From: Candidatus Nitrospira allomarina
GTDB taxonomy: Bacteria; Nitrospirota; Nitrospiria; Nitrospirales; UBA8639
Reading direction: 5' to 3'
Assembly (NCBI RefSeq): GCF_032050975.1
Contig: NZ_CP116967.1
Coordinates: forward strand, 3,717,001 to 3,781,000
DNA: 64,000 nucleotides
Positions 10,751 through 31,990 of the stretch are shown one piece after another; position 1 is the stretch's first letter, and each line of letters starts with the position of its first letter. The translations under genes and the position numbers were made by a program. Under the pieces are notes generated by a model, which saw only the letters and a program-made list of their open reading frames with translations, was not told the DNA's origin and searched no databases.

Positions 10751-13021
10751 ATGGTCAAACGGGTCTTCTTGTTTTTCATGCTGTCGATGGTGGGCTGGTT
10801 TTCCTCTTTCAGTCAGGCTCAGGAGGCTGGCTACGATTATCCTGATGTGAGTCCATATGCCGCGACAGTAATTGGAACTCCGGTGGCACTAAAAGCCGAA
10901 CTTCCCCAGCATATCCCCATTGAAGACCGTGAATTGAATGTATTTCCAGATCGCGCTCTCCCCGACATTCTCTGGTATGGGGAGAATATGCGGTATTCAT
11001 TGGTGACCCAAGACAAACCCTCACCGTTGATATTTGTCATCGCCGGGACCGGCGCAGGGTATAATTCTGAAAAGATGCAGGTTCTGCAGCGAGCATTTTT
11101 TCAGGCGGGCTTCCATGTTCTCTCTTTATCCTCCCCTACTCATCCCGACTTTATCGTCTCGGCCTCCCGAACCGGGATCCCCGGTCATCTTCTGGAAGAT
11201 TCACAAGACTTGTATCGAGTCATGCGATTGGCCTGGCTGGACATTGAACACGAAATCGAGGTCACAGAGTTTTATCTCACGGGATACAGTTTGGGCGCGG
11301 CCCAGGCGGCCTTTGTGTCCCAACTTGACGGCGAACAGGACGATTTCCATTTCACAAAAGTTCTGCTGATCAACCCGCCGGTAAGCTTATACACCTCGAC
11401 CTCCATCCTTGATGACCTGCTGGCTAACAATATTCCCGGCGGAATGGATCAATTTCCGGATTTTTTCGACAACGTGTTTCATACCTTTTCGGAAGAATAC
11501 CAGCATGGTGAATTCGTGAGTCTTAGCGGTGAATTTTTATATTCAGCCTATAAACACCGGCATCTTCCGGATGAGCTCCTAGCCGCACTCATTGGCACCT
11601 CGTTTCGCCTCTCATCCGCAAATATGGTTTTTACATCCGACGTCCTGACCAATTCGGGATATATCAAACCGAAAAATCTGGTGTTGTCGGCAACCGACTC
11701 GGTGACGGACTATTTTAAAGTCTCCAATCATGTGACATTTTTGGATTATTTCCGTGAAATGTTTTACCCGTTTTTTCAAGCTAGATACCCCGGGATGACG
11801 GAACAGCAGCTCATCGCAAACCTGAGTTTGGCCACACTGGAGGAATACCTAAGACACACCCCGAAAGTCGGACTTCTGCATAATGCGGATGACATCATCC
11901 TTGCGCCCGGCGAATTGGATTATCTCAAGACATTATTCGGGCCGCGGGCCAAAATTTATCCCCGGGGAGGACATTGCGGCAACCTGGATCACAGGACCAC
12001 CCTGAATTATATCGTGGATTTCTTTCGAAACCCTCTCCCCCCAAACACGGTTCAGCACCCTGAAACCATGCTCCCGACGCCCGGACCGATGGCTGGTGGC
12101 TACCCGACGCATCAGGCAGCTGGACTGAACGATTTTCCTGCCCCTCGCATCCCACAGAGAATTTCATACCCATCCTCTCTCGACTTCCCATCTCAACTCG
12201 ATCAACAAATCCAGAACTTAGAGAGCAAGCTTCAAGAATCTCATGCCTATCTGCAGGCCGCACAAGCCCGGGCGACAGCCTCGGAAAACATTCCTGACGC
12301 TGCGCTAAGGGTTAGTACCCGCAGCGCGGAGGACGCTGAAGGTGGAAGGATTGAACCGGCGAAACGGCCAATAGAGGACGTCGTGCATCCTGACGCCAGA
12401 TATCTGGTGGATGTCTATGATCCCATAGAAGGGTTTAACCGGGGGACGTATAAGTTTAATGCACAGTTTGATGAATATGTTTTTCTGCCTGTGGTGGAAG
12501 GGTATGAAGCCGTCATGCCGGATTTTTTCGAGGATCGAATCTCAAATTTTTTCTCGAATATTGCCGACATCCGTAATCTGATCAACTCGATGCTTCAACT
12601 CAAGGGGGAAGCGACACTGAACACCTTGGGACGGTTTCTCATCAATTGCACTTTCGGATTAGGAGGATTTTTCGATCATGCCACTCCGTTAGGATTGCTG
12701 CAACAAACCGAGGATTTCGGCCAAACGCTAGGACATTACGGATTGAACCCGGGCGCCTATGTCGTACTTCCCATTTTTGGGCCTTCATCAATTAGAGATA
12801 CGACCGGTCTGCTGACAGATTCCGCGGCCAGCATCTTCTATTTATACACTCCTTTGCATTTAAATCATCATTTTGAACGTAGTGTTCCCTTCAGTCTGAC
12901 ATGGGGAGTGGATATGAGGCATCAGTTGAGTTTTCGTTATTACCAAACGGGCTCTCCGTTCGAATATGACCTGATTCGGTTCCTTTATACCAAATATCGG
13001 GAATTGGAAATTGCCAAGTAG
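10751..13021 (+). CDS. Fusion of serine alpha/beta hydrolase and MlaA/VacJ
   Basis: A 756-residue exported fusion protein. Residues 1-24 are a signal peptide with no lipobox cysteine. Residues about 65-430 form an alpha/beta hydrolase: 'FVIAGTGAGY' strand/oxyanion region, nucleophile elbow GYSLG (Ser180), acid 'NADD' (Asp380/381) and 'GGHCG' (His408). A Pro/Gln-rich linker with a short coiled-coil-like stretch (about 430-545) leads to a complete MlaA domain (about 553-756; 'DVYDPIEGFNRGTYKFN', 'NLINSMLQLKGEATLNTLGRFLIN', 'GQTLGHYGL', 'YVVLPIFGPSSIRD'). MlaA is the outer-membrane part of retrograde phospholipid transport and is normally a lipoprotein of about 250 residues. Here it is probably held by its own membrane helices. 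The fused hydrolase suggests a lipase or thioesterase working on lipids reached by MlaA; that is inference. Confidence 0.9.
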   Translation: MVKRVFLFFMLSMVGWFSSFSQAQEAGYDYPDVSPYAATVIGTPVALKAELPQHIPIEDRELNVFPDRALPDILWYGENMRYSLVTQDKPSPLIFVIAGTGAGYNSEKMQVLQRAFFQAGFHVLSLSSPTHPDFIVSASRTGIPGHLLEDSQDLYRVMRLAWLDIEHEIEVTEFYLTGYSLGAAQAAFVSQLDGEQDDFHFTKVLLINPPVSLYTSTSILDDLLANNIPGGMDQFPDFFDNVFHTFSEEYQHGEFVSLSGEFLYSAYKHRHLPDELLAALIGTSFRLSSANMVFTSDVLTNSGYIKPKNLVLSATDSVTDYFKVSNHVTFLDYFREMFYPFFQARYPGMTEQQLIANLSLATLEEYLRHTPKVGLLHNADDIILAPGELDYLKTLFGPRAKIYPRGGHCGNLDHRTTLNYIVDFFRNPLPPNTVQHPETMLPTPGPMAGGYPTHQAAGLNDFPAPRIPQRISYPSSLDFPSQLDQQIQNLESKLQESHAYLQAAQARATASENIPDAALRVSTRSAEDAEGGRIEPAKRPIEDVVHPDARYLVDVYDPIEGFNRGTYKFNAQFDEYVFLPVVEGYEAVMPDFFEDRISNFFSNIADIRNLINSMLQLKGEATLNTLGRFLINCTFGLGGFFDHATPLGLLQQTEDFGQTLGHYGLNPGAYVVLPIFGPSSIRDTTGLLTDSAASIFYLYTPLHLNHHFERSVPFSLTWGVDMRHQLSFRYYQTGSPFEYDLIRFLYTKYRELEIAK

Positions 13022-13071
13022 CCCGGTTTGGGGACTTTGCAGGTTTATCGCATTCTTTGTAAGATGACGTC

Positions 13072-13701
13072 ATGATGATTCAATCGCTGCAGAGAAAGAC
13101 CCTCACGAATCTTGTCCGAACAGGCCTGCTGCTGTTTCTTTTAGGTTATGGAGGGGGTAGTGAACAAGCCTATGGAGATTCATTGAACGATGACCTCGTG
13201 GATCTCACAGGAGGAGTCGTTCCCTTGCTCTCCTATGATCCCGGAGGAAGTTTCTCCGGCGGAGGCGAATTGTTTTCGGGAGGAAGGCTTTCCTCTCGTG
13301 GGGATGTCCGGTATCTGGTCCGATTGAAAAATCAAACCGGCGACCCCATTGAGGCCGATTCCCTTATTCTCGTCGTAGACAAAATTCAAGAAATGGCACG
13401 GCTTCGTGATGTGACCACCAGCCTCGATATTCAAGGAACCGATGGGAATACTGAAGATGGGAAACCGTATTTTCGGGTTCCGGTTGATGGCCAGGCAGAA
13501 CTCCCCCCATACGGTGAAAGTGAATCGTTTCCCATCGAAATAAAGAACCCTGACCTTCTTCGCTTATATCCTCCGGTTTTACGAGTCCGGGGAATCCGAA
13601 AGACCGCCTCTCATGCGTATCAAGGTGCGCTGCAGAATCTGATCCAGGAAGGTGTCGTGACTCCGGAGGAAGCCAAAAAGTCGATAGACCAATCGCAATA
13701 G
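13072..13701 (+). CDS. Secreted protein of unknown function
   Basis: A 209-residue protein with an N-terminal signal peptide (hydrophobic segment about residues 16-37). The middle is beta-rich and looks Ig-like ('YLVRLKNQTGDPIEADSLILVVDKIQEMA', then a DGN-type loop and 'ELPPYGESESFPIEIKNPD'). It ends in a short helical segment ('GALQNLIQEGVVTPEEAKKSI'), which resembles the short C-terminal helical region of secretory proteins. No family was recognised. It follows the MlaA fusion by 50 nt and precedes a helical-repeat protein by under 60 nt on the same strand, so the three probably share a transcript and may act together at the envelope. Confidence 0.7.
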   Translation: MMIQSLQRKTLTNLVRTGLLLFLLGYGGGSEQAYGDSLNDDLVDLTGGVVPLLSYDPGGSFSGGGELFSGGRLSSRGDVRYLVRLKNQTGDPIEADSLILVVDKIQEMARLRDVTTSLDIQGTDGNTEDGKPYFRVPVDGQAELPPYGESESFPIEIKNPDLLRLYPPVLRVRGIRKTASHAYQGALQNLIQEGVVTPEEAKKSIDQSQ

Positions 13702-13708
13702 ACGCAAC

Positions 13709-14791
13709 GTGGAAAGTCATTGCCTGATGAAATTCCGCAGGACTCACGAAGGGATGAGAATAGTGAACAAACATATTCAAGCCTTGAGAATCAGCTTATT
13801 CGGTGTGATGCTCTTCTTCATGGTCAGCATCGAAACGGTGCCCGCCTCAATGGTAGGGAGCCTGAATGAACCCAACCCCGTAAGCGGCCATTCCATTTCT
13901 CTCAAAGAAATCACGCCTGCCGATGTCCTGGCCCGGGTTCAGATGCTTCGTGAGACCCTGGAATTGATCCGGTTTGAAATGGGAAAACCGTTGGCAATCC
14001 AATCCGAAGCCATCGTCACCAATGTTCACTCCCATGAAGCCTATTTCCAGGCCCTTACCCTCTTTCATAAGGCCGACCGTCTCGCGCTGGAACTCACCGG
14101 AAGTACAGGAATTTCACCGGAACCTATTTCCCTTTCCGCTCTTGCACCCTTGCATATCTGGAAATTGGTGAACGCAAGCTACCTTCGTATTTTGGCCATC
14201 AAGGAGGAATTAGGCCTGAAGGAAATTATTTCAGAACGCCCCGAAGATCCCTCGACCACTCTGACAGAAACCGGACGGGCCATTGTGCAAGCCAACCGGC
14301 AAATCAACTTACTGCAGGAGCGACACTTCTCACCTAGTGATGTGTCGCAACAAGTGCTTCTGGCCAGTCAGTATGCTAAACGGTTGCTGGCCAGGTTTCC
14401 CCAACCAAAGGAGCCTTCGGAGACTCCCCCGCTCGAAAGGGGCAAGCAGCCGGTCGATGTATTCCTTCGCCTGGTTGAATGCTATGCCATTCTGGAAACA
14501 ATTGCGCATCAGTCCGGCATACCTGTTCTTCATCTTGATTTGCCGACCGCGAAAAATGTCGGCCATTCCCGGCGATTGGAACCAAGCGACGTCTATGATA
14601 TGGCCACCCTCCTGGTTTCGGACCTGGCCTATCTCCACGCGCAACTCAAACAAATTGATGCTCCAAGGCCTATTCCATATCCGGGCCGCATGTTTCCTTC
14701 ACATGTCTACCAACAAGCTACCGTGCTTCTACAGCAGTTAAAGACACTGGAACAGTTAGTCACAACCGATCCGAAATGGCTCTCCCGATAG
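13709..14791 (+). CDS. Secreted helical-repeat protein, paralogue 1
   Basis: An exported protein of unknown function, 360 residues from the first ATG. The GTG at 13763, 9 nt after AAGGG, is a better start and gives a normal signal peptide (residues 19-47 of the long form). The mature part is built of about eight units, each starting with a 'P-x-x-V-[YFLW]' turn followed by a Leu-rich helix. They start near residues 69 (TPADVL), 107 (HSHEAY), 147 (PLHIWK), 184 (weak), 208 (SPSDVS), 248 (PVDVFL), 292 (PSDVYD) and 330 (PSHVYQ), mostly 37-44 residues apart. It is clearly related along its whole length to the protein on the opposite strand at 15124-16137. No known family was recognised. Confidence 0.8.
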   Translation: MESHCLMKFRRTHEGMRIVNKHIQALRISLFGVMLFFMVSIETVPASMVGSLNEPNPVSGHSISLKEITPADVLARVQMLRETLELIRFEMGKPLAIQSEAIVTNVHSHEAYFQALTLFHKADRLALELTGSTGISPEPISLSALAPLHIWKLVNASYLRILAIKEELGLKEIISERPEDPSTTLTETGRAIVQANRQINLLQERHFSPSDVSQQVLLASQYAKRLLARFPQPKEPSETPPLERGKQPVDVFLRLVECYAILETIAHQSGIPVLHLDLPTAKNVGHSRRLEPSDVYDMATLLVSDLAYLHAQLKQIDAPRPIPYPGRMFPSHVYQQATVLLQQLKTLEQLVTTDPKWLSR

Positions 14792-15123
14792 ACAATTGAA
14801 CTTTTCTCTCATTCATTCATTCCATCACCCGCTTAGTCCCAAGGTAAATCACACTCCGGAAATCCTTGCCAAAGACCGTTGCCCGACAGACGGCACCACG
14901 TTGAGGAAACCGAACCGTACGCGTGGCAAGGCCACGTGCCCAACCATGAAGCGCTGGAACGAGCATACAACCTGGCGCCGGCAACCACAAAAATCATCGG
15001 CTCTTTTCAATCTCGAAACGAAAAAAGAATTTCAAACAAATTTCGACATGCCCAACGCCTTATATTGATAGCTCATGTCATAATAGGTGAGCTGTTGGTT
15101 CGGTCTTCATTCAGGCCAACAGT
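14792..15123. other. Convergent intergenic stretch between the two paralogues
   Basis: About 330 bases between the stops of two converging paralogous genes. An open frame runs from 14879 to 15145 but lacks a start signal, runs into the opposing gene and has no protein-like pattern. Nothing else was seen. Confidence 0.4.
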
Positions 15124-16137
15124 CTATTTGAGCCATTCGGGATGAGATTGAACCTGCGTGTGTAATACTTTCAATTGAGCCAGGAGTCCACCTACCTGTT
15201 GATACACATGGGAAGGCAGGATAGGACCATGAAGTCTGACAGGGGCTGGTGGAGGAATATGAGGAAGGTGGGCATGGAGATACGCAAGTTCAGAGATGAT
15301 CAGCGTTGCTAAATCGTAGACATCATTCGACTGAATATCGGGACGATCCAGATTCTGAGGGGCCAACGTTAACATTTGAATATGGGAGGCCCGTGCGATA
15401 TTTCCTAACACCATATAACAATCAATGAGATGGTCATAGCTATTCCATGACTTACGCCCTCGCTCAAGCGAAGGGAGAGGAGGCGGGGCGGGAGTGGAAG
15501 GAAATTGACGCAAAAGTTGTGTGGTGTAGTCGATGCCCAGGCCGACCAATTCTGCAGCATCTTTCGGAGAAAACTGATGCATCAGTAAAAGGTTGAGTTG
15601 GGTATTCGCCAATCCAATAACAAAAAAGACTTGATTGGGAGTAGTTTCACCATCGGCCAGGGCTTCACTGTTCGTCAGGGAAAGCCCTAATTGCTGTTTA
15701 AGAGACAGGAGTCGGCGCAAAGAGGTATCGATCATTTTCCAGACATGATAGGGACGTATATCGCCCGGATCCTCTTCTGTTCCCTCGACCTGCGATTTCT
15801 CGGTGAGTTCTGCGACCAACCTGGCCACTTTTTGATTAAGGGTTTTGGCTTGAAAGAACACCTCGTGAGGCGTCGCATTTTCAACCAGGAGGCCGATTTC
15901 GCGACTTTTGGGTCTTCCCATTTCAAAACGAATGTCGTCCAGTTCTTTCCGTACCAATTGCACACGTGCGAACACATCCGCCGGGGTGATGGATTCAATA
16001 GAAAGTTCATGACCACTCACGGGAGGAGGAGTGGTAATGTCCTTGGTCATTCCAAGACTTATCATTGGAAAACTGTTTAAAACCGCTATCATCACTCCAA
16101 CTTTGAGAATGGGTAATGGCTGAATGGTGAAATGCAT
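15124..16137 (-). CDS. Secreted helical-repeat protein, paralogue 2
   Basis: A 337-residue exported protein related to the one at 13709-14791 and pointing toward it. AAAGG lies about 9-13 nt before the ATG. The signal peptide covers about residues 1-30. The same eight-unit plan is visible: units start near residues 52 (TPADVF), 90 (PHEVFF), 129 (PYHVWK), 167 (PNQVFF), 191 (PKDAAE), 231 (weak), 270 (NDVYDL) and 308 (PSHVYQ). Best-kept positions shared by both paralogues include 'ITPADV.ARVQ', 'IRFEMG.P', 'S.LAYLHA.L' and 'PSHVYQQ'. The fold is probably an all-helical solenoid or bundle in the periplasm. Function unknown. Confidence 0.8.
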   Translation of the reverse strand: MHFTIQPLPILKVGVMIAVLNSFPMISLGMTKDITTPPPVSGHELSIESITPADVFARVQLVRKELDDIRFEMGRPKSREIGLLVENATPHEVFFQAKTLNQKVARLVAELTEKSQVEGTEEDPGDIRPYHVWKMIDTSLRRLLSLKQQLGLSLTNSEALADGETTPNQVFFVIGLANTQLNLLLMHQFSPKDAAELVGLGIDYTTQLLRQFPSTPAPPPLPSLERGRKSWNSYDHLIDCYMVLGNIARASHIQMLTLAPQNLDRPDIQSNDVYDLATLIISELAYLHAHLPHIPPPAPVRLHGPILPSHVYQQVGGLLAQLKVLHTQVQSHPEWLK

Positions 16138-16542
16138 AGTAGTGGCCTTTTGTGAAAGCCCCGACCTCTTCCATTGAATTTGCCCAAGGGATTCGGTAGG
16201 CGGCAGTGGTCCATGTTGCTTGCCTTAATTGATCATTCTTCGTTGAACACGTTACCCCGACATTGGCGGCACTCCCTTCCAGCTTCAAGCCATATCTGAG
16301 GATCACCCCTGGTGGTTCGGGTCTATAACGGCCGTTGACAGCCCAAACCACCAACAAGACCGGACTTCCCCTGTTACAATTTCGATGATGTGTCTTTTCC
16401 GGTTTTCCTTCATACGTAGGACGATATCAAAAACACGATTCTCTCCACATCATTTTTATTCGTTGGGGTTCAATTTGTTGTCACCAAATAGTTGACCTCC
16501 CTAGTTCTGTCCGCACTATTTTGGCCATACGGCTGCGTTCCT
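16138..16542. other. Intergenic stretch
   Basis: About 405 bases between the AsmA gene end and paralogue 2. A frame on the minus strand is open but overlaps the start of the paralogue and shows no family pattern. It should hold the promoter of paralogue 2. Confidence 0.4.
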
Positions 16543-17607
16543 TTACCGTGGATTGTCGGAAGAAGATTTAGAAGATCCACCAAGATTGGTAAAGGTCTTC
16601 TTAATTTTTCCCCACCAACCGCCTTTGATATCTTCGAGAGCCTGAGCGGTTTCTTGTCGCCCCTTTAAGGCCTCAACGCAGGGGTTTTGTTTCATCGTCC
16701 CCATGGTGGTTCCAGCAATTTGCGGAATCGCAATCACCCATCCCACCGGAGTGACTAACCCCAACAGTCCCCACCCGCCGCTTTCGGCTATGCGGAATTT
16801 GTCACTGGACACATCCGGATCTGAAAGCGGACCGGTGATGCGAACCGTGTGAGCCAGACTGAATAAACTGGGGTCTTTGGGCCGTGGAGTCAGGAGCACG
16901 TCCAGGGTTTCATCCGCCAGATTTAATTTTCCAATGCCCGCGATTGTCAGTCGATGGGAGTCGATGAGGATATCATTACTTTTCACCACTCCCTCTTCAA
17001 TATCAAAATACCCGACAGTACAATTCAATTTGGTGACTGATTCACTTTCCCAGGCAGTAGTTAAGGCCGTCGTGATCAAATCAGCCGCCCACAAATCAAT
17101 GTATTTTGTGGCCAGTTCAAGTGGGCCATCGACCAGCTCAAATCGTCCACTGGCTTGTTCCAAGACTTCATGTAACGTATCTCCTCGACCCTTTAGGCCC
17201 AGCATGATGGATTGGGACTGCCCTTTCACCAGATCGGCAACCTCGAACGATCTGCTGACGCGCTCATAATCCAGGCCCTGGACGTGCAGATTTGCCTCAA
17301 GGGTCGGAACGTATTGGGTTCCGTCGAGGACCAGTTTCCCTTCAACTTCCCCTCCCCAAAGATTTCCGGTTACGGGTTGCAGGGCAAGCAAGCCCTCTTC
17401 AAGGGCGATCTGAAATGAGGCATGGCCCAGATCCTCTTTGCTCTTTCGAATATGTTGAATTTCGACATCAAGCCCGAGATCAATGGCCCTGAGATCCTCA
17501 ACCGGAAAAACCAAATCCGGAATCGACTTAAGCGTGGAAGCCTTTGGTTTTTTCCTTATGCCTATGGTATCGCGAAGGACATCAACGGCCGATTGAGCCG
17601 ATGCCTT
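16543..17607 (-). pseudogene. C-terminal part of the AsmA-family protein, frame-shifted
   Basis: This frame encodes the C-terminal third of an AsmA-like protein ('LGHASFQIALEEGLLALQP', 'WGGEVEGKLVLDG', 'RFELVDGPLEL', 'IAGIGKLNLADETLDVLLTPRPKD', then 'VRITGPLSDPDVSSDKFR'), the usual closing domain of AsmA/YhdP-type lipid-transport proteins. It has no good start: the first usable codon is a TTG at 17514 with no ribosome site. Upstream the frame stays open to 17607 and reads as a natural continuation of the large upstream AsmA frame. The two overlap between 17582 and 17607, so one indel in about 17585-17607 would join them into one protein of about 1,345 residues. Either the gene is broken, the sequence has an error, or ribosomes shift frame. 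Confidence 0.75.
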
Positions 17608-20581
17608 TCACCGAGTCCCCAATGGTTTTGAGCGTCGATCTCTTATCTTGTACCGGGGAATCAACCGAAGGTGTTAATACGGCATCCAGGACAACATTCT
17701 CTGAGGTGAGTTTACCCCTTACACGCGGGCGAATCCCATTCGTTAAGAGTGTCACATGGCCACTCACGTCGCTTCCGGCTAGAGATCCTTCCAAATCGGT
17801 GACGTGGTATCCCACAGTAGACCTCGTGACCAGACCGGTGAGGTCCAAGGGGCCGATATCGGGTAAGCTGGCTGCCGTCAGAAAGTTCAAATCCCTGAGA
17901 TTCTTTCCTTTCATGAGAATCTGCAGCGTAAATTCTTCGGCTGGATGAGGAAGAATAAGGTGGCCGCTCAATTCCACTAACGCCTCCGGGACATCCAGCC
18001 GGACATTCATGGGCCACAATCCCCTGTCTTTCAGGAGGTCCATCATCGAACCGGTTGACGATCGAAGGCGAAATGATGTGCTGTCAAATATCCCCTCGGC
18101 ATAAAGGCGTAACGGCCCACCGTCCACAGTTTCAACTTTCAAGTTTGAAATCACCTGCACCGGGACGGGATGATCGCCCTCCCGATGAAACCTGACCGAG
18201 AGTTTTTCCCCATCGACTCGAACAGTAGAATGGTTCACCATGTCGGAAATTGTGTGACCCACACTAGAAAATTCCGCATCCAGGTTCACAACATTCTCGG
18301 TGAGGTCTACGAATCCCACCTCGGGGAAGAGATGTTCGTACCGGACATGGTCAAGGGACACGTTGCCGGAAAGCGTCGGAATCGTCCGGGTGGCATCCAA
18401 TTGAAACCTGCCATGAAAATCACCGTATGCGGATTGCTGATCCAGAATGGTTCCTTGAACATTTTCCACCTTCAACCGACCCGCTTGAAGTCCGGCTGTA
18501 AAGGTCAGACCGGCCACATTCAGTCTTCCATTTCGAACTTGGTTGATCACCATGTTCAGATCAACATCAATCGCGCGCATCCCTTCAGATGGAATGGCAC
18601 TCTCACTTTCATCCTCCGGTCGGGAAAGTTGAGTCCAATCAATTTGCTTCGATGTGAAAATCCCCGTGAGATAAGGCCTGGCCTTCTGGAAATTCATTTC
18701 CAGAATTCCCGACAAATCGCTGTTTCCAAACCGACTGCGAAAATCACTCACTTCGTACCGGTCACCCTTCTTCGTCAGCTGAGCCCTGAGAGCATACGGA
18801 CCAACAGGAGGAAGATCGGGATCAAGCTCACTGAGCCGACGTCCTTTGAGGGAGACAGCCAATGCCCCCGTCAGATCAGGCCCGCCGGTTTGTAAAAAAC
18901 CTTTGGCTTCCAGAAAAGCCCCGCCGACTTGAGCTGATATCGACAGGGGCCATGTCGTTCCCGGTGTGGCCAGATCAATCAAAGAAGTTGTCGCCAGTTT
19001 TAAATTCACAGTACTTTCCCGATACGCACCTTGAGCAACCATTGTCACCGGACCCCCTTTTGTCACACGCAGGGATCCTTCTCGCAAAACAACCGGGGTG
19101 CCGGCTTCTGGCGTTGGGTCGGAAAACCCGAAGGTGGTGCGACGGTTGTGAAGGTTCACCGTCAGCGAGTTCAAGAGTTCCGGCAACAGGCCACCACTCC
19201 CGTTAGCGGTGAGATCAAAGTCTGTAGAGCCTTCGATAGTCATCGCGCCCCCAAGAGCCCGAAGAGCAGAACCATAGTTCAAGGATCTCACCTTCGCTTG
19301 AAGCGTAGCTTGTGCCTGAGGCGGCTTGAAGTCGACCGTTAACCGGGCTTCCCCCGTCCCTCCGAAACTTTTCATTTGAATAGGATCAAGAAGCACCTGG
19401 CCTTCCCCTATGCCGGCAGTAAAAGACAACGAACCAAGATCCGCCTCGCCGAGTAAGAGCCTTGCGACCGTGACATCCAGATCGACATCCATAGGCGGAG
19501 ACGCGGGAGGAAGGGAAAGCGGTTCCTCCAGGGAAGATGCGGGTTTGGATGAGTGTTGAGGTGTAAGAGAGGTCAAGTCATGTATCTGTAAGGCATTGAA
19601 GGTCAAGCGACCGCTTATTTTCTGCCCTTCATCCCCATTCTGTATCCGCAATTGTCCACCTAGATCCGAGGCCCCCAACGTTCCACGAATTTCATTCAAG
19701 TTGATGACATCGGGAGTTTTCACGACGTGTCCTGCAAGCATGACCGGGGGAGAATCGGGAAGGTCAATCTGCAAAAGTTCATTCAGCACACTCAAACGGT
19801 CCCCCTTTATCTGGACCTGGAGTTCAAACGCCTGGTCGGAGTTCGCCTCTCCAACACTTCCTTGTATAGATGCAGATGCTCCTGTTGTAGACAGCACCCC
19901 TTCGACCGGCCAGGCGTCGGTCCAGGTAAACATGTCCATGATAGAGCCGCCAATCAGCTCAATCTTGACGGGGCTGTCGTGGTAGGCTCCTTCCAAAGAA
20001 AATGTGCTATGCCGGTCGTCGGGAGCAATGATTAATCCCCGATAAATCCACACGTCAGTCGTTTCCTCAGCAGGGTATGGCCGGTACAAAATTCGGGAGC
20101 GTTCGATGATGATTTCCCCTCTTTCTGCGAAAGTCATGAAGTCCGAGGGAACGGCCCGTGAGAACATGCCCGGTTGAGTGTCCTTCCGGAAAGTCCAGTT
20201 ATCTCGATCTTCGGACCCTTCTTCCAAAAGAAGTTCCGCTCCTTCCAACGCAATATTTTCAATCTCCAAATGGCGCCGGAGAAGGGGTCCCAAGGACAAT
20301 CCGATTTCAAGTCGGTCGGCTCGAAATAGATGTGGTTGAGAAGCCCAGGGAGGGTTAGCAACATATACATCTTCTAGAATTAAAATAGGTTGCAGGGAGA
20401 AGGTGAGTGAGATCGGTCCTTTAATCTTAACGGGTCGCTCCATGGCTGCGGAAAAACCCGCTTCCAAAGACCCTCGATAGACGTCCTCTTCATAAAAGGG
20501 GAAAAGGATATAGGCGAGGGCAATCAACACCCCAATCAGAAAAACACTCCCAAGCCCCAACCACAGAAAGCGACGACGCAT
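17582..20581 (-). CDS. AsmA-family envelope protein, N-terminal part
   Basis: 999 residues of a very large AsmA-family protein. Residues 6-29 form a single membrane anchor and are followed at once by the AsmA hallmark ('RPVKIKGPISLTFSLQPILILEDVYVANPPWASQPHLFRADRLEIGLSLGPLLRRHLEIENIALEGAELLLE' region, about 51-120). The rest is repeated beta-strand units ('GTLGASDLGGQLRI', 'SRFGNSDLSGILEM', 'GSLAGSDVSGHVTL'), which build the hydrophobic groove of bridge-like lipid transporters such as YhdP and TamB. The frame stops at TGA 17584-17582 just where the C-terminal domain should begin; that domain is in the next frame. It is in the same orientation as the pqi operon upstream, so both may serve inner-to-outer-membrane lipid traffic. 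Confidence 0.88.
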   Translation of the reverse strand: MRRRFLWLGLGSVFLIGVLIALAYILFPFYEEDVYRGSLEAGFSAAMERPVKIKGPISLTFSLQPILILEDVYVANPPWASQPHLFRADRLEIGLSLGPLLRRHLEIENIALEGAELLLEEGSEDRDNWTFRKDTQPGMFSRAVPSDFMTFAERGEIIIERSRILYRPYPAEETTDVWIYRGLIIAPDDRHSTFSLEGAYHDSPVKIELIGGSIMDMFTWTDAWPVEGVLSTTGASASIQGSVGEANSDQAFELQVQIKGDRLSVLNELLQIDLPDSPPVMLAGHVVKTPDVINLNEIRGTLGASDLGGQLRIQNGDEGQKISGRLTFNALQIHDLTSLTPQHSSKPASSLEEPLSLPPASPPMDVDLDVTVARLLLGEADLGSLSFTAGIGEGQVLLDPIQMKSFGGTGEARLTVDFKPPQAQATLQAKVRSLNYGSALRALGGAMTIEGSTDFDLTANGSGGLLPELLNSLTVNLHNRRTTFGFSDPTPEAGTPVVLREGSLRVTKGGPVTMVAQGAYRESTVNLKLATTSLIDLATPGTTWPLSISAQVGGAFLEAKGFLQTGGPDLTGALAVSLKGRRLSELDPDLPPVGPYALRAQLTKKGDRYEVSDFRSRFGNSDLSGILEMNFQKARPYLTGIFTSKQIDWTQLSRPEDESESAIPSEGMRAIDVDLNMVINQVRNGRLNVAGLTFTAGLQAGRLKVENVQGTILDQQSAYGDFHGRFQLDATRTIPTLSGNVSLDHVRYEHLFPEVGFVDLTENVVNLDAEFSSVGHTISDMVNHSTVRVDGEKLSVRFHREGDHPVPVQVISNLKVETVDGGPLRLYAEGIFDSTSFRLRSSTGSMMDLLKDRGLWPMNVRLDVPEALVELSGHLILPHPAEEFTLQILMKGKNLRDLNFLTAASLPDIGPLDLTGLVTRSTVGYHVTDLEGSLAGSDVSGHVTLLTNGIRPRVRGKLTSENVVLDAVLTPSVDSPVQDKRSTLKTIGDSVKGIGSIGR

Positions 20582-20879
20582 TGTTTCCTTTACGAATAAG
20601 TGCCTGTTTTACGTGGGATCGTTTTTCCGGACGCAACAGCCTGCAACTTGAAAAGCATGAATCTCAAGGTTATCAAACGATAAAAATTTCCTGACATGAG
20701 TTTTTTGACTCACTCTGCCCCTATCACGTCACACACCTTCGGGGGTTCCAGACCGGGCACAGTCAAAGAGACCAACAAGTGCGGGAGCGAACAAATCCAA
20801 GGAAGTTGGGTTGTCAGGGAGACAACGTGATACACGCAGCCCGCGAGAATGGGGTGACAAAAACCCTTTGTGAAGGCAA

Positions 20880-21377
20880 TCAGGGAGCACTGAATACGAT
20901 TCGCCTCAAGGTCCCTTCTCCTAACCGCCGATCAATACCTCGATAAAGAAAAAATCCCATAAAGGCCAGCCCGATGCATATCACCTTAGCGAAAATAATA
21001 GGAAGATCCTTCTGCTCCCACACATCCATGAAAGCCGCACCCAACAGACCACTTTCCCGAAACGCATGAAACATTTTTTCAGCAAATAAAACCAGGAAGG
21101 TGCATCCACTATACACGATGGTCCGATACAGAGCAGCCGCACCGAGGGAATGATGAGCATCAAACCTGGTGCCCGCTCGGGTTTTACCCAACAGGACCAC
21201 AACCTTTGCAACAATGAGTGCGCCGACCAATGCCGTGGAGAAGGCGTAAAACTCGATATGATAACCCTCCAACATCAGTTTTTTTAGAGTCAGGATGACG
21301 CCGAAACAGAAGAAAAAATACAGGGTCACTAAACCGACTTCTTTAATTTCATGTTTGACCGTTGAAAGCATCCCCAT
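20880..21377 (-). CDS. Four-helix membrane protein of unknown function
   Basis: A 165-residue protein with four predicted membrane segments (about residues 13-30, 41-63, 84-105 and 125-145) and basic loops ('KTRAGTRFDAHHSL', 'RGIDRRLGEG'). No motif that fixes a family was recognised. It lies between the AsmA gene and the pqi operon on the same strand, about 195 nt after pqiC. It may be co-transcribed with the lipid-transport genes, but a role there is only inferred from position. Confidence 0.7.
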   Translation of the reverse strand: MGMLSTVKHEIKEVGLVTLYFFFCFGVILTLKKLMLEGYHIEFYAFSTALVGALIVAKVVVLLGKTRAGTRFDAHHSLGAAALYRTIVYSGCTFLVLFAEKMFHAFRESGLLGAAFMDVWEQKDLPIIFAKVICIGLAFMGFFLYRGIDRRLGEGTLRRIVFSAP

Positions 21378-21571
21378 GAATTATTCTCCGTGTAAGTGTG
21401 CGTCTTGTCCTGCAAGTTAAACCAAAGTACCACGACCATCGATGGTGAGCATCAGATAACATCAGGATGAAAAGTCCCGTCGGATTGTGTGCACATGGCG
21501 ATCCATGACCCCTAGGGCCATTTTTAAGTGTGTCTCTGCACGCAGCAAAACACATCCCTGCCAATGGCAGT

Positions 21572-22222
21572 TTATGAAGTTGAGCCAGGTAGGATTGTGG
21601 GGAGAAGCAACTTAATGGCCTCGGCAATCTCGCGACTGAGATCCTCAAGATTCTGACTCATGGCCTCAACCAGCGCTTCATAATCCTGGCTTGTGGGATG
21701 ATGGGTCACATGCGTTTTCCTTGTGGTGAAGACTGTTTGTTCATCTCCATCCAAAAGGCTCCACCGTGCTGACAAGACGGCCTCCCCTCCCCTGGTCCCA
21801 TCAAACTGCAAGATATCCACAACAATTTGGTAATCCACGGGAGTTGTTCTCCTCCACGGATACTGTTCGATCCGATCCGTCGAAAGCATGGCTGAGAGAT
21901 TTTCCGCCAGGACGTGAGACACATTTTCGCTCAACGGTTCAGCCCATTTATGAAATTCCGCCAACTCGACCTCATGCCCACCCGATTGAGTCACAATTTG
22001 CGGCCGGTCCAAATATTTTGGAAGGGTGACCGGCCCCAATCCAAAGGACAGGCTTGAGGCTTTCGTGTCTGATAAGCCTGAAACGGAGGATGGCGGCAGG
22101 GCTCGCAACAAATAAAAATGCGAAGGTTGACTCGTCCCGCACCCCAAGATAGTCAGAAGGGTTACGCAGGCCACGATGATACGGAAACCATGTATGATGC
22201 TGTTCATGTCCACCTCATTCAA
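21572..22222 (-). CDS. pqiC: PqiC-like auxiliary lipoprotein
   Basis: A 216-residue lipoprotein with lipobox ILGC (Cys28). It matches the ABC-type transport auxiliary lipoprotein family (PqiC/YmbA): 'SHFYLLRALPP' after the lipidated cysteine, 'LGPVTLPKYLDRPQIVTQ', 'AEFHKWAEPLSENVSHVLAENLSAML' and 'VDYQIVVDILQFDG'. In E. coli PqiC sits on the inner face of the outer membrane and joins the PqiB tube. The ATG overlaps the stop of pqiB by four bases (ATGA), so translation is coupled. Confidence 0.9.
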   Translation of the reverse strand: MNEVDMNSIIHGFRIIVACVTLLTILGCGTSQPSHFYLLRALPPSSVSGLSDTKASSLSFGLGPVTLPKYLDRPQIVTQSGGHEVELAEFHKWAEPLSENVSHVLAENLSAMLSTDRIEQYPWRRTTPVDYQIVVDILQFDGTRGGEAVLSARWSLLDGDEQTVFTTRKTHVTHHPTSQDYEALVEAMSQNLEDLSREIAEAIKLLLPTILPGSTS

Positions 22223-23880
22223 TGTTTCCCTTTGACTAATGCTTCAGGATGTTGTTCGAGATAATCGGCCAAAACCCGAATAGAGCGGGCGGCAGCAGAC
22301 AGCTCCTTCAGGGCACTGTTCATATTCACCGCAGCAGGTGAATTGGGATCAATCTGCTGTATTCCTTTCTGGACCATCACCAGGGTGTTATCTAAATTCG
22401 TCATCAGTGTATCAACCTGCCGGTCAAGACCCTCAGTGAACTTTTCCACATTTCCTAATGCTGCATTAAGATTGTGGACGGCTTTTTGCGTGTCGGGAGA
22501 ATTGACCAAACGGTTGCCGCCTTCGACGGTTTCCAGTATTTCCTTGGCAATTTTATCAAGAGGCAACCGTCGAACTTCTGCCATCACATCGGTAACCGTT
22601 CGTCGCAATTCATCCATCGCTGCGGGTACTGCCGGAATCTCCGGATATTTTCCGGACATAATCAGCTCTTTCTCTGGAAGATTCTGGTGGAAATCAAGCC
22701 CGACGAACAACTGTCCGGTCAGCAGGCTCCCGGTCAACAGTTGAGCTCTCAACCCGCGTTTCACCATATGCTTTATGATAGCGTATTGATCCTCTAATAC
22801 GTGTGATTGCACAACCTGTATGGTGGTGATTCGTTCCGGCTGGATCTCGATAAGCACGGGAATTTTAATTTCAAGCGTCTTAGGGTCAAGCTTGACCGCG
22901 ATATCGGAGACGATCCCGATTTTAATTCCCCGGAATTCCACAGGAGCCCCGACGCTCAAGCCCCTCACTGATCCATCGAAATTGATGACAAACGGACGCG
23001 TCATGACATATTTCTCGTCTTGAATACTGGTAAAATTCTCAAAAAGTTTAAAGGCCGTGCCCGGTTGGCTGGGCTCACCCGACCCTCCTGCGGTTGCCGG
23101 AGTATCGAATGCAATTCCTCCGGTGAGGAGGGAGGAGAGCGATTCCATCTTCACATCAAGGCCTTCTGCCCCAAACGATACTTCAAACCCGCTTAACTGC
23201 CAGAATCGGCTGGTATCCCGTACCCGCAGATGATGCGGGGCTTGAATGAAAATATCAATCAACACACCCTCGCCTTCCTTGTCCAAGGCATAGTCAAGAA
23301 CACGTCCAACCTGAATATCGTGATAAAAGACCGGGGCACCGGGGGCACTCGATCCCAGATTTTCCGCCTGCAATTGGAATTGAGCCCCTTGGTCTTCCCG
23401 TGTCACTCCAGGTGGTTTCTCCAGTCCCGTGAATGTTCGAGCCGAAGGTCCAGGTCTGGGATCCATGGCAATATAGGCTCCGGACACTAATGTCTCAAGC
23501 CCCGAAATACCGCCTAATCCCAGCCGGGGACGGACCACCCAAAACTGGGCATTTTCCGTGAGGTGAGGCTCAGCCTGTTTGCCGAGTTCTGCGGTCACAA
23601 CCACGTGAGAGAGGTCATGACTGATATGCACGGTTTTGACGGTTCCGACCTCAATGGACTTGTATTTAATTTTGGTTTTTCCGGTTTCCAACCCGGCCCC
23701 ATCTTTAAAGGTGATGGTGACCGTTGGCCCCTTTTCGGAGATGGTTTTGAAAATTAGCCACCCTCCGATAAGAGCCGCAACGATAGGAATAATCCACACG
23801 ATGGAAATCCCGCGCTTTTTTTGTACTGTGGCTTTGGGCAAATCCTCGAAATCGCCAGGATTGAATTCCTTGTCCTTCAT
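22219..23880 (-). CDS. pqiB: PqiB-like MCE protein
   Basis: A 553-residue MCE protein. An N-terminal membrane anchor (about residues 24-45) is followed by three MCE domains, recognisable from 'GPTVTITFKDGAGLETGKTKIKY' (about 51-75), 'SSAPGAPVFYHDIQVGRVLDY' (about 173-195) and 'GSVRGLSVGAPVEFRGIKIGIV' (about 300-325). A long C-terminal helix with heptad-like spacing follows ('GNRLVNSPDTQKAVHNLNAALGNVEKF' onward, about 440-545). In E. coli, PqiB hexamers stack their MCE rings and use the C-terminal helices as a needle across the periplasm to move lipids between membranes. Both ends overlap neighbours by four bases, so it is the core of the pqi operon. Confidence 0.93.
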   Translation of the reverse strand: MKDKEFNPGDFEDLPKATVQKKRGISIVWIIPIVAALIGGWLIFKTISEKGPTVTITFKDGAGLETGKTKIKYKSIEVGTVKTVHISHDLSHVVVTAELGKQAEPHLTENAQFWVVRPRLGLGGISGLETLVSGAYIAMDPRPGPSARTFTGLEKPPGVTREDQGAQFQLQAENLGSSAPGAPVFYHDIQVGRVLDYALDKEGEGVLIDIFIQAPHHLRVRDTSRFWQLSGFEVSFGAEGLDVKMESLSSLLTGGIAFDTPATAGGSGEPSQPGTAFKLFENFTSIQDEKYVMTRPFVINFDGSVRGLSVGAPVEFRGIKIGIVSDIAVKLDPKTLEIKIPVLIEIQPERITTIQVVQSHVLEDQYAIIKHMVKRGLRAQLLTGSLLTGQLFVGLDFHQNLPEKELIMSGKYPEIPAVPAAMDELRRTVTDVMAEVRRLPLDKIAKEILETVEGGNRLVNSPDTQKAVHNLNAALGNVEKFTEGLDRQVDTLMTNLDNTLVMVQKGIQQIDPNSPAAVNMNSALKELSAAARSIRVLADYLEQHPEALVKGKH

Positions 23881-24506
23881 GATTTCTCCTCTATGTTGTC
23901 CCAGATCAATCGGGGATCGAAACTCATGGCGGCAAACATGGTCAAAATCACCACTGCGGCGAATGAGATCGCCCCCGGCCCGGGTTCAATTGTCGCCACG
24001 GCATCAAGTTTTACCAGGGCAATTAAAATCGAAATCATAAAAATATCAATCATGGACCACCGGCCGACCACCTCGGTCATCCGGTATAACTTTGTCCGTT
24101 GGCTTGGGCGCCATTGAGATTTGTATTGGACAGAAAGCAACAGATACGTCAGCGCCAGGAGCTTTAAAACCGGCACGGTAATGCTGGCGAAAAATACCAG
24201 CAAGGCAATCGGCATCATTCCGGCATGAATGAGTTCCTTGACCCCGCTCAGGATTGTATCCGCTTCGCCTTTCCCAAACGAAATCACCGTCATCACCGGA
24301 AGCAGGTTGGCCGGGATATACAAAATATAGGCGGCAATCAATAGGGCCCACGTGCGCGAAATACTATTGGGTTTTCGCAGGTGAAGATGGGCCTCGCAGC
24401 GAGGGCAGATGGCCTCCCCCTCACTCAATAGTGGGGATATTCGACTGAGTTGATGGCAGGCATGACAACTCATGAGCCCCGACCGGGCTGCGGTGGGGCC
24501 GCTCAC
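23877..24506 (-). CDS. pqiA: PqiA-like membrane protein, second copy
   Basis: PqiA-domain inner-membrane protein of 209 residues from the chosen GTG at 24506. The open frame extends eight codons further to a TTG, but GTG overlaps the stop of the upstream pqiA (GTGA) and has GGAGAAG 6 nt before it. A zinc-ribbon-like start has two CxxC pairs ('CHAC' and 'CPRC'), followed by four membrane segments with family motifs 'ANLLPVMTV', 'LLVFFASITVPVLKL' and 'RWSMIDIFMISILIALVKL'. E. coli PqiA carries two such units in one chain; here they are two genes. Its stop overlaps the pqiB start by four bases. Confidence 0.92.
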   Translation of the reverse strand: MSGPTAARSGLMSCHACHQLSRISPLLSEGEAICPRCEAHLHLRKPNSISRTWALLIAAYILYIPANLLPVMTVISFGKGEADTILSGVKELIHAGMMPIALLVFFASITVPVLKLLALTYLLLSVQYKSQWRPSQRTKLYRMTEVVGRWSMIDIFMISILIALVKLDAVATIEPGPGAISFAAVVILTMFAAMSFDPRLIWDNIEEKS

Positions 24507-25114
24507 GCAATCTTCTCCATTTTTTCCCAAACCGCATGGGTGTCCAGTGCAGAGTCGGCGGCAGCCAGGGTCAGGATTAAGGCGACAAATGAATAAATCG
24601 CCACACCGGGAACCAGATTGGCCAAATCCGACAACTTCACCACGGCAACGATCACTCCCAGCAAATATACGTCCATCATGGCCCAGGTCCGGCAGTGCTC
24701 AACTATCCGAAAGACCAGCGCGGCGTGCCACGGTCGCTTGTTGAATTCCAGCGGCCCAAGAACGTATAACATGCCGAGGATTTTCAGGGCTGGAAAAATG
24801 ATACTTGCACACAACACCAGAACCCCTAACGCCCACATTTCCCGGTCAAAGAACTCCCTCACCCCTGTGGATAGAAGGCTCTCCTGAACACGGCCATTGA
24901 GCTCGAATGTCATAAACGGGAAAACATTCGCCAGGGTAAAGAAAATGAGACTGGCCAAGGCCAGGATGATGGTATGTTCGAAACTATCCCGTTTTTTCGC
25001 ATACAACGATGCGCCACATCTCGAACACCTGGCCCGCTCACCATACTGTAGCGGGTGAATACGATGAAGAAGATCGCATTCATGACAGGCAATTAAGGTA
25101 TGGAGGGCGGCCAT
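24503..25114 (-). CDS. pqiA: PqiA-like membrane protein, first copy
   Basis: PqiA-domain inner-membrane protein of 203 residues from ATG 25114 (the frame is open 30 codons further upstream, but those residues are polar and unlike the family). It shows 'CHEC' and 'CSRC' metal-site pairs, then four membrane segments with 'ANVFPFMTFELNGR', 'LVLCASIIFPALKILGMLYVL' and 'RTWAMMDVYLLGVIVAVVKL'. It opens the operon pqiA-pqiA-pqiB-pqiC, in which every junction is a four-base overlap. PqiA is thought to be the inner-membrane partner that feeds lipids to or takes lipids from the PqiB tube. Confidence 0.9.
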   Translation of the reverse strand: MAALHTLIACHECDLLHRIHPLQYGERARCSRCGASLYAKKRDSFEHTIILALASLIFFTLANVFPFMTFELNGRVQESLLSTGVREFFDREMWALGVLVLCASIIFPALKILGMLYVLGPLEFNKRPWHAALVFRIVEHCRTWAMMDVYLLGVIVAVVKLSDLANLVPGVAIYSFVALILTLAAADSALDTHAVWEKMEKIA

Positions 25115-25749
25115 GTCATTCCCGTTCGATCCGGCTGGAAACACATCATCTCCACTGTGCGTCCTCAATGGAATGTCCCATCGTGTCGCTGATGCTTGTA
25201 ACACATTCGAGAAAATTTTTCACCAGCAACTGGCCACCAAACACAAGGCATTCGGCACGAATGGGACTATTAAAGCTTGATTGCGGCCTTGGATAACCTC
25301 CCATAATATAATGAAGGATTAACCAGGATAAGCCAAAAACACCCCCAAGCCTTTTCACCAAAATACGGTTCCGGACATGAAGGGATCGCTCGAGAACCCC
25401 AATGTCCTCATATCGCCCTTACTCAACGAAGGGTTGGAGATGAACCCGGATTTTGGAAAGGAGAAGCCCGTACGGAAACACGGACAAGAGGCAAGAACGC
25501 CGCTGACGGACTTTTTCCCCACCCTGCTAGAGAGAAAGAACGGACAGTCCCCACCCCGCAAGGTGAACCATGCCTAAAACCATAGCTCCCCGATAATCCG
25601 TTTGAGACTTTTCCGAGCCATGTTACATGTTCAAGGTAGATTCAGCATTCAGAAGCAAGGCTACAAGTACACCACAGAAAAATTCCCCGGAAGCCATTAC
25701 CCTATCAAAACAGGCTTAAATGCGTTCTTCCTGATTGTCCAATCCTGTG
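25115..25749. other. Intergenic stretch
   Basis: About 635 bases upstream of the pqi operon. It should contain the pqi promoter. Open frames (for example 25377-25577) have no ribosome site or recognisable pattern. No RNA or repeat was seen. Confidence 0.4.
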
Positions 25750-30351: not shown

Positions 30352-31101
30352 TCAAGGAGACCGAGGAAGGGCCTCTTTCGTTGCCCGCCAATCACGAAGC
30401 CGCTGGGATAACCTGGTTGCCCAGTACTCAAAGGCCTGCTGAACATCATCCCATGAATCCATTGAGCCATCCAGCGTTCGACCTCCCATTCGACGATCGA
30501 CGGCTGCCGCCAGCAGGGTGCCGGTGTCTCCATCGGTTAATTTTCCTTCAACAGTGGCCCGTCCCACAAACGCCTGCGTGCCCGTGGCAAGTCCCGTGGC
30601 TGCCGATATCACACCAGCCGGTGGGACAAGAGTGGTAATAATATCCATACCAACATCGGCTGGCACGGCTTCGGTTAAAGCCAGCTCTAATCGTAATGCT
30701 CCGGGTACTAATTTCGGAACGACAAGAAAATCTTCTTTGAGTGCCCAGATCATCTTTGAACGGAGATCTTCACCCAGTTTGTGTAATTGTTCCTGGGGAA
30801 CCGACGATTGCTTTGACAATAAAACGGTAACCGGGTCCACGTATAACGTGCGATAAGTGGAAAAATCAGCTTGAGGATTCTTGTACACGAGAAGCGATTC
30901 CCCCTCTTCTCCCTCTTGGAGAAGGGAATAATCTCTGATAAATCCTGAAGTCTGCACGTTTCCAGCCTGTTCGGTCTTCGCGCACCCTGCAACAACGAGG
31001 ACGATCGTAAGTACGCTTGAGAATCCGAGTCTCTTAAGCCGGTCAACCTGCCTGAATCCCGGCTTTCCGCTGCGGCAATCGGAGGATGTTATGTCAACCA
31101 T
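30352..31101 (-). CDS. DUF3313-type lipoprotein
   Basis: A 249-residue lipoprotein. A long basic N-region precedes the hydrophobic core and lipobox VAGC (Cys40). The mature part has the DUF3313 pattern: 'SGFIRDYSLLQEGEEGESLLVYKNPQADFSTYRTLYVDPVTVL' (about 52-95), 'LRLELALTEAVPAD' and a Gly/Ala-rich segment around residues 160-185, then 'VEGKLTDGDTGTLLAAAVDRRMGGR'. An AGGA element about 9 nt upstream supports the ATG. Function of the family is unknown; members sit in the envelope. Confidence 0.85.
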   Translation of the reverse strand: MVDITSSDCRSGKPGFRQVDRLKRLGFSSVLTIVLVVAGCAKTEQAGNVQTSGFIRDYSLLQEGEEGESLLVYKNPQADFSTYRTLYVDPVTVLLSKQSSVPQEQLHKLGEDLRSKMIWALKEDFLVVPKLVPGALRLELALTEAVPADVGMDIITTLVPPAGVISAATGLATGTQAFVGRATVEGKLTDGDTGTLLAAAVDRRMGGRTLDGSMDSWDDVQQAFEYWATRLSQRLRDWRATKEALPRSP

Positions 31102-31255: not shown

Positions 31256-31990
31256 TCAATTGTTTGCATTGGTAGCCTTCCTGATCACTTCGAGCAAAGT
31301 ATTGGCCTGGGGATTATTCACACTACGCCGCACCAATATATCGATCGTTTTGGTTGGTGTTTGATAATAACTGGTGTTTAACGTATCCCGTGCGGCGACA
31401 ACTGCCCCTTCGAGTGAAATGCCCGCAAACAATCCCTTTGCCTTGGAAAAGGATAAAAGATCCACACTTAAATTTGGCGCCGTCGATCCCTCAACCCCTC
31501 TCCCGATTGGTCCAACCGCGAGGGAAGCATCGGCACCCAACTTCAAGGTCGTACTCATCAGGGAATCGATGCCCTTTTGCGTCATGACCAACAACACGAC
31601 TTCCGAAGCTTGTCCGCCGAATTGGAATCCGAAACTGGCACCACCCATGGTAAAAAAGGCAGGATAGCTCCATTCATTGGTTTTTTCATCACGAGCGATC
31701 AACACACCGCTTCCCCCCGACCCGCCGACAAAAAAGGCTCCTTTAATAAATTGGGGAACAAGTAAAATGCCGCGCGCGTTCTTCATATAATCCCGGAACC
31801 ACTGCATGTCCGGATCCGCAAGAAAATTCTCCAGGGTAAAACGAGCTTTATCCACCAGGAACTCTTCTTCAGAAGCATTCTGTGCCCAACTCGAAGTCGG
31901 AATGACCAATGCCAGACATAACATGCCACATCCAAGAATTATCCGGAACAGCCGCGAAGAATGACTCATGGATCGTACCTGGGTAGACAT
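31256..31990 (-). CDS. SYLF/Ysc84-domain lipid-binding protein
   Basis: A 244-residue secreted protein with a signal peptide (about residues 1-36, cut near SSWAQ) and a SYLF domain: 'YMKNARGILLVPQFIKGAFFVGGSGGSGVLIAR' (about 68-100), 'WSYPAFFTMGGASFGFQFGGQASEVVLLVMTQKGIDSLMS', 'LGADASLAVGPIGRG' and 'FSKAKGLFAGISLEGAVVAAR'. These Gly-rich repeats define the family, which binds phosphoinositides in eukaryotes; bacterial members are envelope proteins of uncertain role. GGAGAGG 8 nt before the first ATG fixes the start. It is transcribed away from the cti gene. Confidence 0.9.
   Translation of the reverse strand: MSTQVRSMSHSSRLFRIILGCGMLCLALVIPTSSWAQNASEEEFLVDKARFTLENFLADPDMQWFRDYMKNARGILLVPQFIKGAFFVGGSGGSGVLIARDEKTNEWSYPAFFTMGGASFGFQFGGQASEVVLLVMTQKGIDSLMSTTLKLGADASLAVGPIGRGVEGSTAPNLSVDLLSFSKAKGLFAGISLEGAVVAARDTLNTSYYQTPTKTIDILVRRSVNNPQANTLLEVIRKATNANN

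Follow-up and report, generated by a model that had tools for sequence, protein, structure and literature searches.

The window analysed here is a 64,000-nucleotide stretch (G000:C1:3717001-3781000) of the complete, 4.55-Mb genome of Candidatus Nitrospira allomarina, referred to below as G000, of which G218 is the closest relative. A preliminary description of the window had pointed to a 14-kb island of envelope-lipid transport genes, in which a fusion protein containing an MlaA domain lies near an AsmA-type protein, a set of pqi genes and four proteins of unknown family (U209, U360, U337 and U165; Table 1). By analogy with Pseudomonas aeruginosa, this fusion is very probably one polypeptide made of MlaY, a periplasmic phospholipase, and MlaZ, an MlaA-family outer-membrane lipid extractor. 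Since it is encoded by a single open reading frame (ORF) of 756 amino acids (aa), it would represent a fused variant of MlaYZ and not the two-protein system itself.

The MlaA domain named in the preliminary description is borne out (residues 556-751; PF04333, 7.4e-63), and to it can be added an N-terminal half that had not been identified, a serine alpha/beta-hydrolase spanning residues about 30-430, with a Pro-rich, helical and coiled-coil-like linker of about 120 residues joining the two. In the predicted structure, residues 30-430 mostly exceed 90 in the predicted local distance difference test (pLDDT), and the hydrolase fold is matched with an E value of 3.1e-8 in Foldseek and a Z score of 20.5 in VIA. 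The Pfam match to this part is marginal (0.035), and a PDB sequence search with it gave no useful match, a result with which the existence of known relatives is compatible. The catalytic triad, Ser180-Asp381-His408 with spacings of 201 and 27 residues, is kept in all 76 aligned proteins, that is, the protein of the window and those of 75 loci in which the ORF was caught. The only cysteines of the fusion are Cys409 and Cys633, neither of which is a lipobox cysteine. Its frame is open, and its sequence is 93% identical to that of G218.

The founding study of MlaY and MlaZ is reportedly that of Guest et al. (2023) on PA3238/PA3239 of P. aeruginosa. As a stand-in for the named PAO1 record, a pair from genome G349 was assigned as Pseudomonas-type on the basis of its residue numbers and its minCDE neighbours; the locus is flanked by minE, minD, minC, a lipid A acyltransferase and a glycine-betaine binding protein, which we take to be the neighbourhood of PA3238/PA3239. 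The fusion hydrolase shares 41% identity over 408 aa with the G349 hydrolase, and the MlaA part shares 47% over 206 aa with the G349 MlaA protein, while the other MlaA of the window genome reaches 39% over 209 aa. Numbered from an internal Met, the G349 triad falls at 187/388/415, and the active site reported for MlaY is Ser187, Asp388 and His415, with the same spacings as in the window protein (PMC11977310). MlaYZ has been proposed to extract misplaced outer-membrane phospholipids in P. aeruginosa and to degrade them (PMC11131202, PMC11977310, PMC12569750, PMC10474453). The identity of the fusion as MlaYZ is firm, and a phospholipase function would carry over to it from the Pseudomonas work. 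The fusion represents a known membrane-cleaning device in a new form and no new lipid-transport machine.

To collect relatives, contigs of genomes were scanned for matches to an alignment restricted to the hydrolase part. The best 80 of 104 confirmed loci, mostly from metagenome-assembled genomes with short flanks, belong to Gammaproteobacteria, Desulfuromonadia, Desulfobulbia, Nitrospirota and other groups. Directly downstream of the hydrolase gene and on the same strand lies mlaA in 78 of the 80, and the remaining two are unreadable at this point, the contig ending after 48 bases in one and being replaced by a run of N in the other. The same pairing was seen in the order of Halioglobus, in which 29 of 293 genomes were matched and hydrolase and MlaA stand together in 28/28 loci examined, the 29th match being a weak fragment. 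Among 20 genomes with the pair, several of them incomplete, 15 have at least two MlaA genes and five have one.

Hydrolase and MlaA are fused in one ORF in six loci (L045, L046, L047, L048, L050, L052). When 77 paired and 10 unpaired MlaA domains were placed on a tree (excluding the unpaired row L130 and duplicate rows for loci that it already contained), the two sets split at a support of 99/97 and the six fused rows split from the rest at 99/87; an earlier tree, containing antisense-frame rows, grouped the fused rows with L049 at 100/98. At L049, which is the same locus as that of G211, the two genes share one reading frame and are separated by a single stop; the MlaZ encoded there has no cysteine of a lipobox, and a stretch of helical appearance, similar to that of the fusion linker, is already present in it. 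A lipobox was found by pattern in 46 of 50 separate MlaZ proteins; of the other four, three have a cysteine that looks lipobox-like on inspection, and L049 has none. The lipoprotein anchor has been lost in the fusion, and an order of events in which anchor loss preceded the joining of the genes is plausible. In the family comparison (48 genomes, many of them incomplete) the fusion query matched 11 genomes, nine of which hold the fusion as one open frame (cut at the contig end in G224), whereas it is present as two genes in G211 and as a fragment in G223. On a contig of G226 (G226:C239; L040, L042-L044), a second, broken copy with several stops lies upstream of an open U360.

Several points weigh against this reading. 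The hydrolase fold is common to many esterases of other function, and its nearest fold matches are carbon-ester hydrolases with varied substrates. The MlaA half is modelled partly poorly, its pLDDT falling from ~90 to <40, and the geometry of a lipid hand-over lies beyond the model. Furthermore, with 11 matches the fusion is not universal in its group, though the incompleteness of many genomes bears on this count.

Table 1. Features of the window discussed in the text, with positions counted from the first nucleotide of the window.
Feature	Position	Strand	Remarks
Probable MlaY-MlaZ fusion, 756 aa, single ORF	10751..13021	+	Sec-type N terminus, alpha/beta-hydrolase, linker, MlaA domain
U209, 209-aa exported protein	13072..13701	+	no Pfam/NCBIfam match
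U360, 360-aa exported helical protein	13709..14791	+	no known fold match
U337, 337-aa paralogue of U360	15124..16137	-	41% identity to U360
AsmA-like, C-terminal 323 aa, other frame	16543..17514	-	PF05170 5.2e-11
AsmA-like, N-terminal 999 aa, frame broken at end	17582..20581	-	PF05170 7.1e-26
U165, 165-aa membrane-type protein	20880..21377	-	no Pfam match
PqiC-type lipoprotein	21572..22222	-	PF03886 3.9e-48
PqiB, three MCE stretches	22219..23880	-	PF02470 3.6e-36; NF008070 2.6e-137
PqiA, second subunit gene	23877..24530	-	PF04403 4.4e-59
PqiA, first subunit gene	24503..25204	-	TIGR00155 1.3e-29
DUF3313 lipoprotein	30352..31101		
Ysc84/SYLF protein	31256..31990		
Fatty acid cis/trans isomerase	32164..34551		PF06934 1.7e-270

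Among the neighbours, the complete pqiA-pqiA-pqiB-pqiC set of the preliminary description is confirmed by family matches, PqiA, PqiB with its three MCE domains and the PqiC lipoprotein forming one operon-like run (21572-25204). The giant AsmA-type protein does match PF05170 but consists of two ORFs in different frames instead of one giant ORF; since AsmA is intact as a single ORF in G218 (1345 aa) and G191 (1335 aa), the window copy carries a frameshift, real or due to sequencing error. The four proteins of unknown family had been put forward as candidates for new components; of these, U360 and U337 are paralogues and not two separate families, and the U209-U360 pair stays near pqi in the more distant genome G133. 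For U360, a PDB sequence search gave nothing useful and a fold search no match under E 0.4, with which known relatives are again compatible. At L030 and L031, relatives of U360 from outside the family adjoin signalling-type genes (histidine-kinase- or receptor-like by eye), not lipid genes, and U360 may therefore be a sensor part. A promoter scan returned 9 sites against a mean of 13.7 in shuffles, that is, fewer than in shuffled sequence. Beyond the pqi genes, at a distance of 7 kb, lies the fatty acid cis/trans isomerase, a further enzyme whose targets are the acyl chains of membrane phospholipids. Relatives of the DUF3313 lipoprotein and of the Ysc84-type protein occur near mlaYZ in 7/80 and 2/80 loci, respectively.

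The island as a whole is collinear in G218 only, with its parts scattered in other members of the genus, and was rejected as a fixed unit. Matches among the family genomes number 25 for PqiB, 14 for U360 and 27 for AsmA (many of the latter weak). The order fusion-U209-U360 is kept in G218, G235, L045 and L046, and in G225 the fusion adjoins U360, while U337 lies near U165 and pqi without asmA. U165 stands beside pqiC in G218 and G225, and AsmA stands beside pqi in G000, G218 and probably G221 only. In G133 (genus g4), pqiA-pqiA-pqiB-pqiC, a 285-aa gene, U209 and U360 follow one another in the same orientation, and the fusion gene lies 13.5 kb upstream of them. PqiB and fusion genes are found on different contigs in G225, G224, G226 and G229 (fragmented assemblies) and are separated by about 43 kb in G191. 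The collinearity restricted to G218, together with the partial linkages elsewhere, therefore shows a pair of partly co-travelling modules and no single, fixed machine.

These linkages bear on the possibility that the fusion is the outer-membrane entry point of the adjacent PqiABC and/or AsmA within a joint transport island, which we regard as doubtful, although it draws on more than the arrangement in G133. Six of the 80 mlaYZ loci (L060, L064, L065, L070, L075, L084) have MCE, PqiA or MlaE genes at most 10 kb away, without exception on the same strand, and in L070 and L075 mlaY, mlaZ, a substrate-binding protein (SBP) gene and pqiA run together. MCE genes were observed at 5 loci against 1.34 expected when every domain match is counted as a site (P about 0.012, Poisson), a test that was post hoc, took its density from 40 chosen genomes including all six positives and was thereby biased; L070 and L075 also look like near relatives. 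A precedent for mixing exists in Brucella, from which a chimeric Mla-Pqi system, Mpc, is described (PMC12436622). However, 74/80 loci have no such gene in the available stretch, many of these stretches being short, and the genus shows the intact arrangement in G218 only, with pqiB and fusion apart in the five genomes named above. The earlier suggestion that the MlaA fusion may work with Pqi or AsmA is partly supported: the partner of the MlaA domain is the fusion's own lipase, as in MlaYZ, but two recurring linkages, pqi with the U209-U360 pair in G133 and mlaYZ with MCE, Pqi or MlaE genes in six loci, keep a part of it alive.

The preliminary description had further remarked that the island lacks mla transport genes, and among the ORFs read here no MlaC, MlaD, MlaE or MlaF gene occurs, PqiB MCE domains aside. 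Elsewhere in G000, mlaD and mlaC are neighbours and are adjoined by mlaE- and mlaF-like ORFs, the latter two named by reading ORFs by eye, with no profile match, which gives an apparent mlaEFDC operon (L006); a separate MlaA lipoprotein is encoded at G000:C1:878913. A normal mla operon with an MlaA of its own elsewhere was among the findings that, according to the preliminary description, would speak against its joint system, and it is largely present. The fusion as a substitute for a missing Mla system was rejected, because this apparent operon and the lone MlaA are present. The genome contains a second MlaC gene at G000:C1:2258081 (L011, L013), near which no MCE gene was seen, and a second MCE operon (L007 4708-8285; G000:C1 about 2266700-2270285), whose last gene encodes a PF03886 lipoprotein and whose make-up is like that of Brucella Mpc.

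Other neighbours of mlaYZ suggest what may become of the cleavage products. A gene for an Aas-like ligase/acyltransferase, of an 824-aa type with AMP-binding, PP-binding and acyltransferase domains in the one member read, lies in 10/80 loci, and a major facilitator superfamily (MFS) gene in 12/80. Every MFS copy is on the mlaY strand; so is one ligase copy per locus in the ten, and two of these loci hold an additional ligase copy in the opposite orientation. Both genes are mostly found upstream of mlaY; the exceptions, with a downstream position, are L100, L108 and, for the ligase alone, L076. In E. coli, Aas acts in the PldA-LplT-Aas turnover of phospholipid. The carrier LplT moves lysophospholipid inward there (PMC5874903). 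Because Aas-like and MFS genes adjoin Geobacter-type mlaYZ, lysophospholipid salvage is suggested there. At L084 (8568-9611), just upstream of mlaY, a homologue of pentameric ligand-gated ion channels is encoded (PF02931/PF02932).

It is improbable that the hydrolase-MlaA pair instead takes in and degrades external hydrophobic esters, such as sterols, fats or waxes, as food. FadL-type genes do occur in 5/80 loci, and periplasmic substrate-binding proteins precede or follow the pair in many (Peripla_BP_6 right after mlaZ in 24/80, SBP_bac_3 and NMT1_3 types in others), but the window family of Nitrospirota would not be expected to live on lipids, the Geobacter-type neighbours indicate acyl re-use, and the P. 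aeruginosa pair is implicated in outer-membrane phospholipid removal (PMC11977310, PMC12569750, PMC10474453, PMC11131202). A fusion gene that is decaying or out of use, with neighbours brought together by chance, might be suggested by the frameshifted AsmA next to it and the broken copy in G226, but is highly improbable given its open frame, intact triad, identity to G218 and open fused relatives in eight further genomes.

In the membrane-cleaning mechanism that we favour, the MlaZ part would take misplaced phospholipid from the outer leaflet and pass it directly to the tethered hydrolase, where Ser180-Asp381-His408 would cleave it. The products would leave by other routes. PqiABC, encoded close to the fusion, could plausibly return them to the inner membrane, and the MFS transporter and the Aas-like enzyme of Geobacter-type relatives would re-make phospholipid. 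Homology, triad, gene pairing, a single fused group on the tree and anchor loss are the observed part of this proposal; the substrate, the direction, the hand-over and a partnership of the fusion with Pqi are what we infer, and the links of MlaYZ to Pqi and to salvage are suggestive. More tentatively, MlaYZ might head a widespread pathway of phospholipid breakdown and rebuilding, in which extraction and cleavage are followed by return through a binding protein or Pqi/MCE and by rebuilding through an MFS flippase and a ligase/acyltransferase bearing an acyl carrier protein domain, with the unlipidated fusion as its Nitrospirales form and U209 and U360 as new parts.

The existence of a natural fusion strongly supports the idea that MlaZ hands lipid directly to MlaY, so far only a proposal in Pseudomonas, and offers a single-chain protein for structural work. 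In addition, the conserved neighbours provide a testable answer to the fate of lysophospholipid and fatty acid, and they tie Pqi, a system of which little is understood, to an enzyme that degrades lipid. What is new is that some Nitrospirales hold extractor and lipase as one polypeptide, the two-protein form being already known from Pseudomonas. No title or abstract was found that reports MlaA/VacJ fused to a hydrolase or lipase, and the founding MlaYZ paper may already mention distribution or fusion.

Compared with known systems, the proposal resembles the PldA-LplT-Aas turnover of E. coli in that outer-leaflet phospholipid would be broken and its products re-used, and Geobacter-type loci resemble LplT-Aas in having an MFS gene and a protein with AMP-binding, PP-binding and acyltransferase domains by mlaYZ. 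Unlike PldA, MlaY is an alpha/beta-hydrolase and not a barrel, and the MFS and ligase genes are only candidate counterparts of LplT and Aas, known from Geobacter-type loci. Brucella Mpc (PMC12436622) sets a precedent for combining Mla with Pqi parts, and the L007 operon of the window genome is of similar make-up, but such a system lies away from the fusion locus and has no lipase. The window pqi genes equal PqiABC in completeness and differ from it in that two short genes take the place of a single long PqiA gene and in the 165-aa membrane-type protein that follows. With canonical MlaA the fusion shares the PF04333 domain and, as expected, the fold, whereas it branches apart from unpaired MlaA, carries an attached lipase and has mlaC, mlaD and their neighbours elsewhere in the genome. 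The closest counterpart is MlaY/MlaZ of P. aeruginosa, with a homologous lipase and MlaA-family protein, equal triad spacing, equal gene order and a canonical MlaA that is likewise retained; from it the fusion differs in being one polypeptide instead of two, in an MlaA part without lipobox, in its coiled-coil-like linker and in its position adjoining U209/U360 and near pqi.

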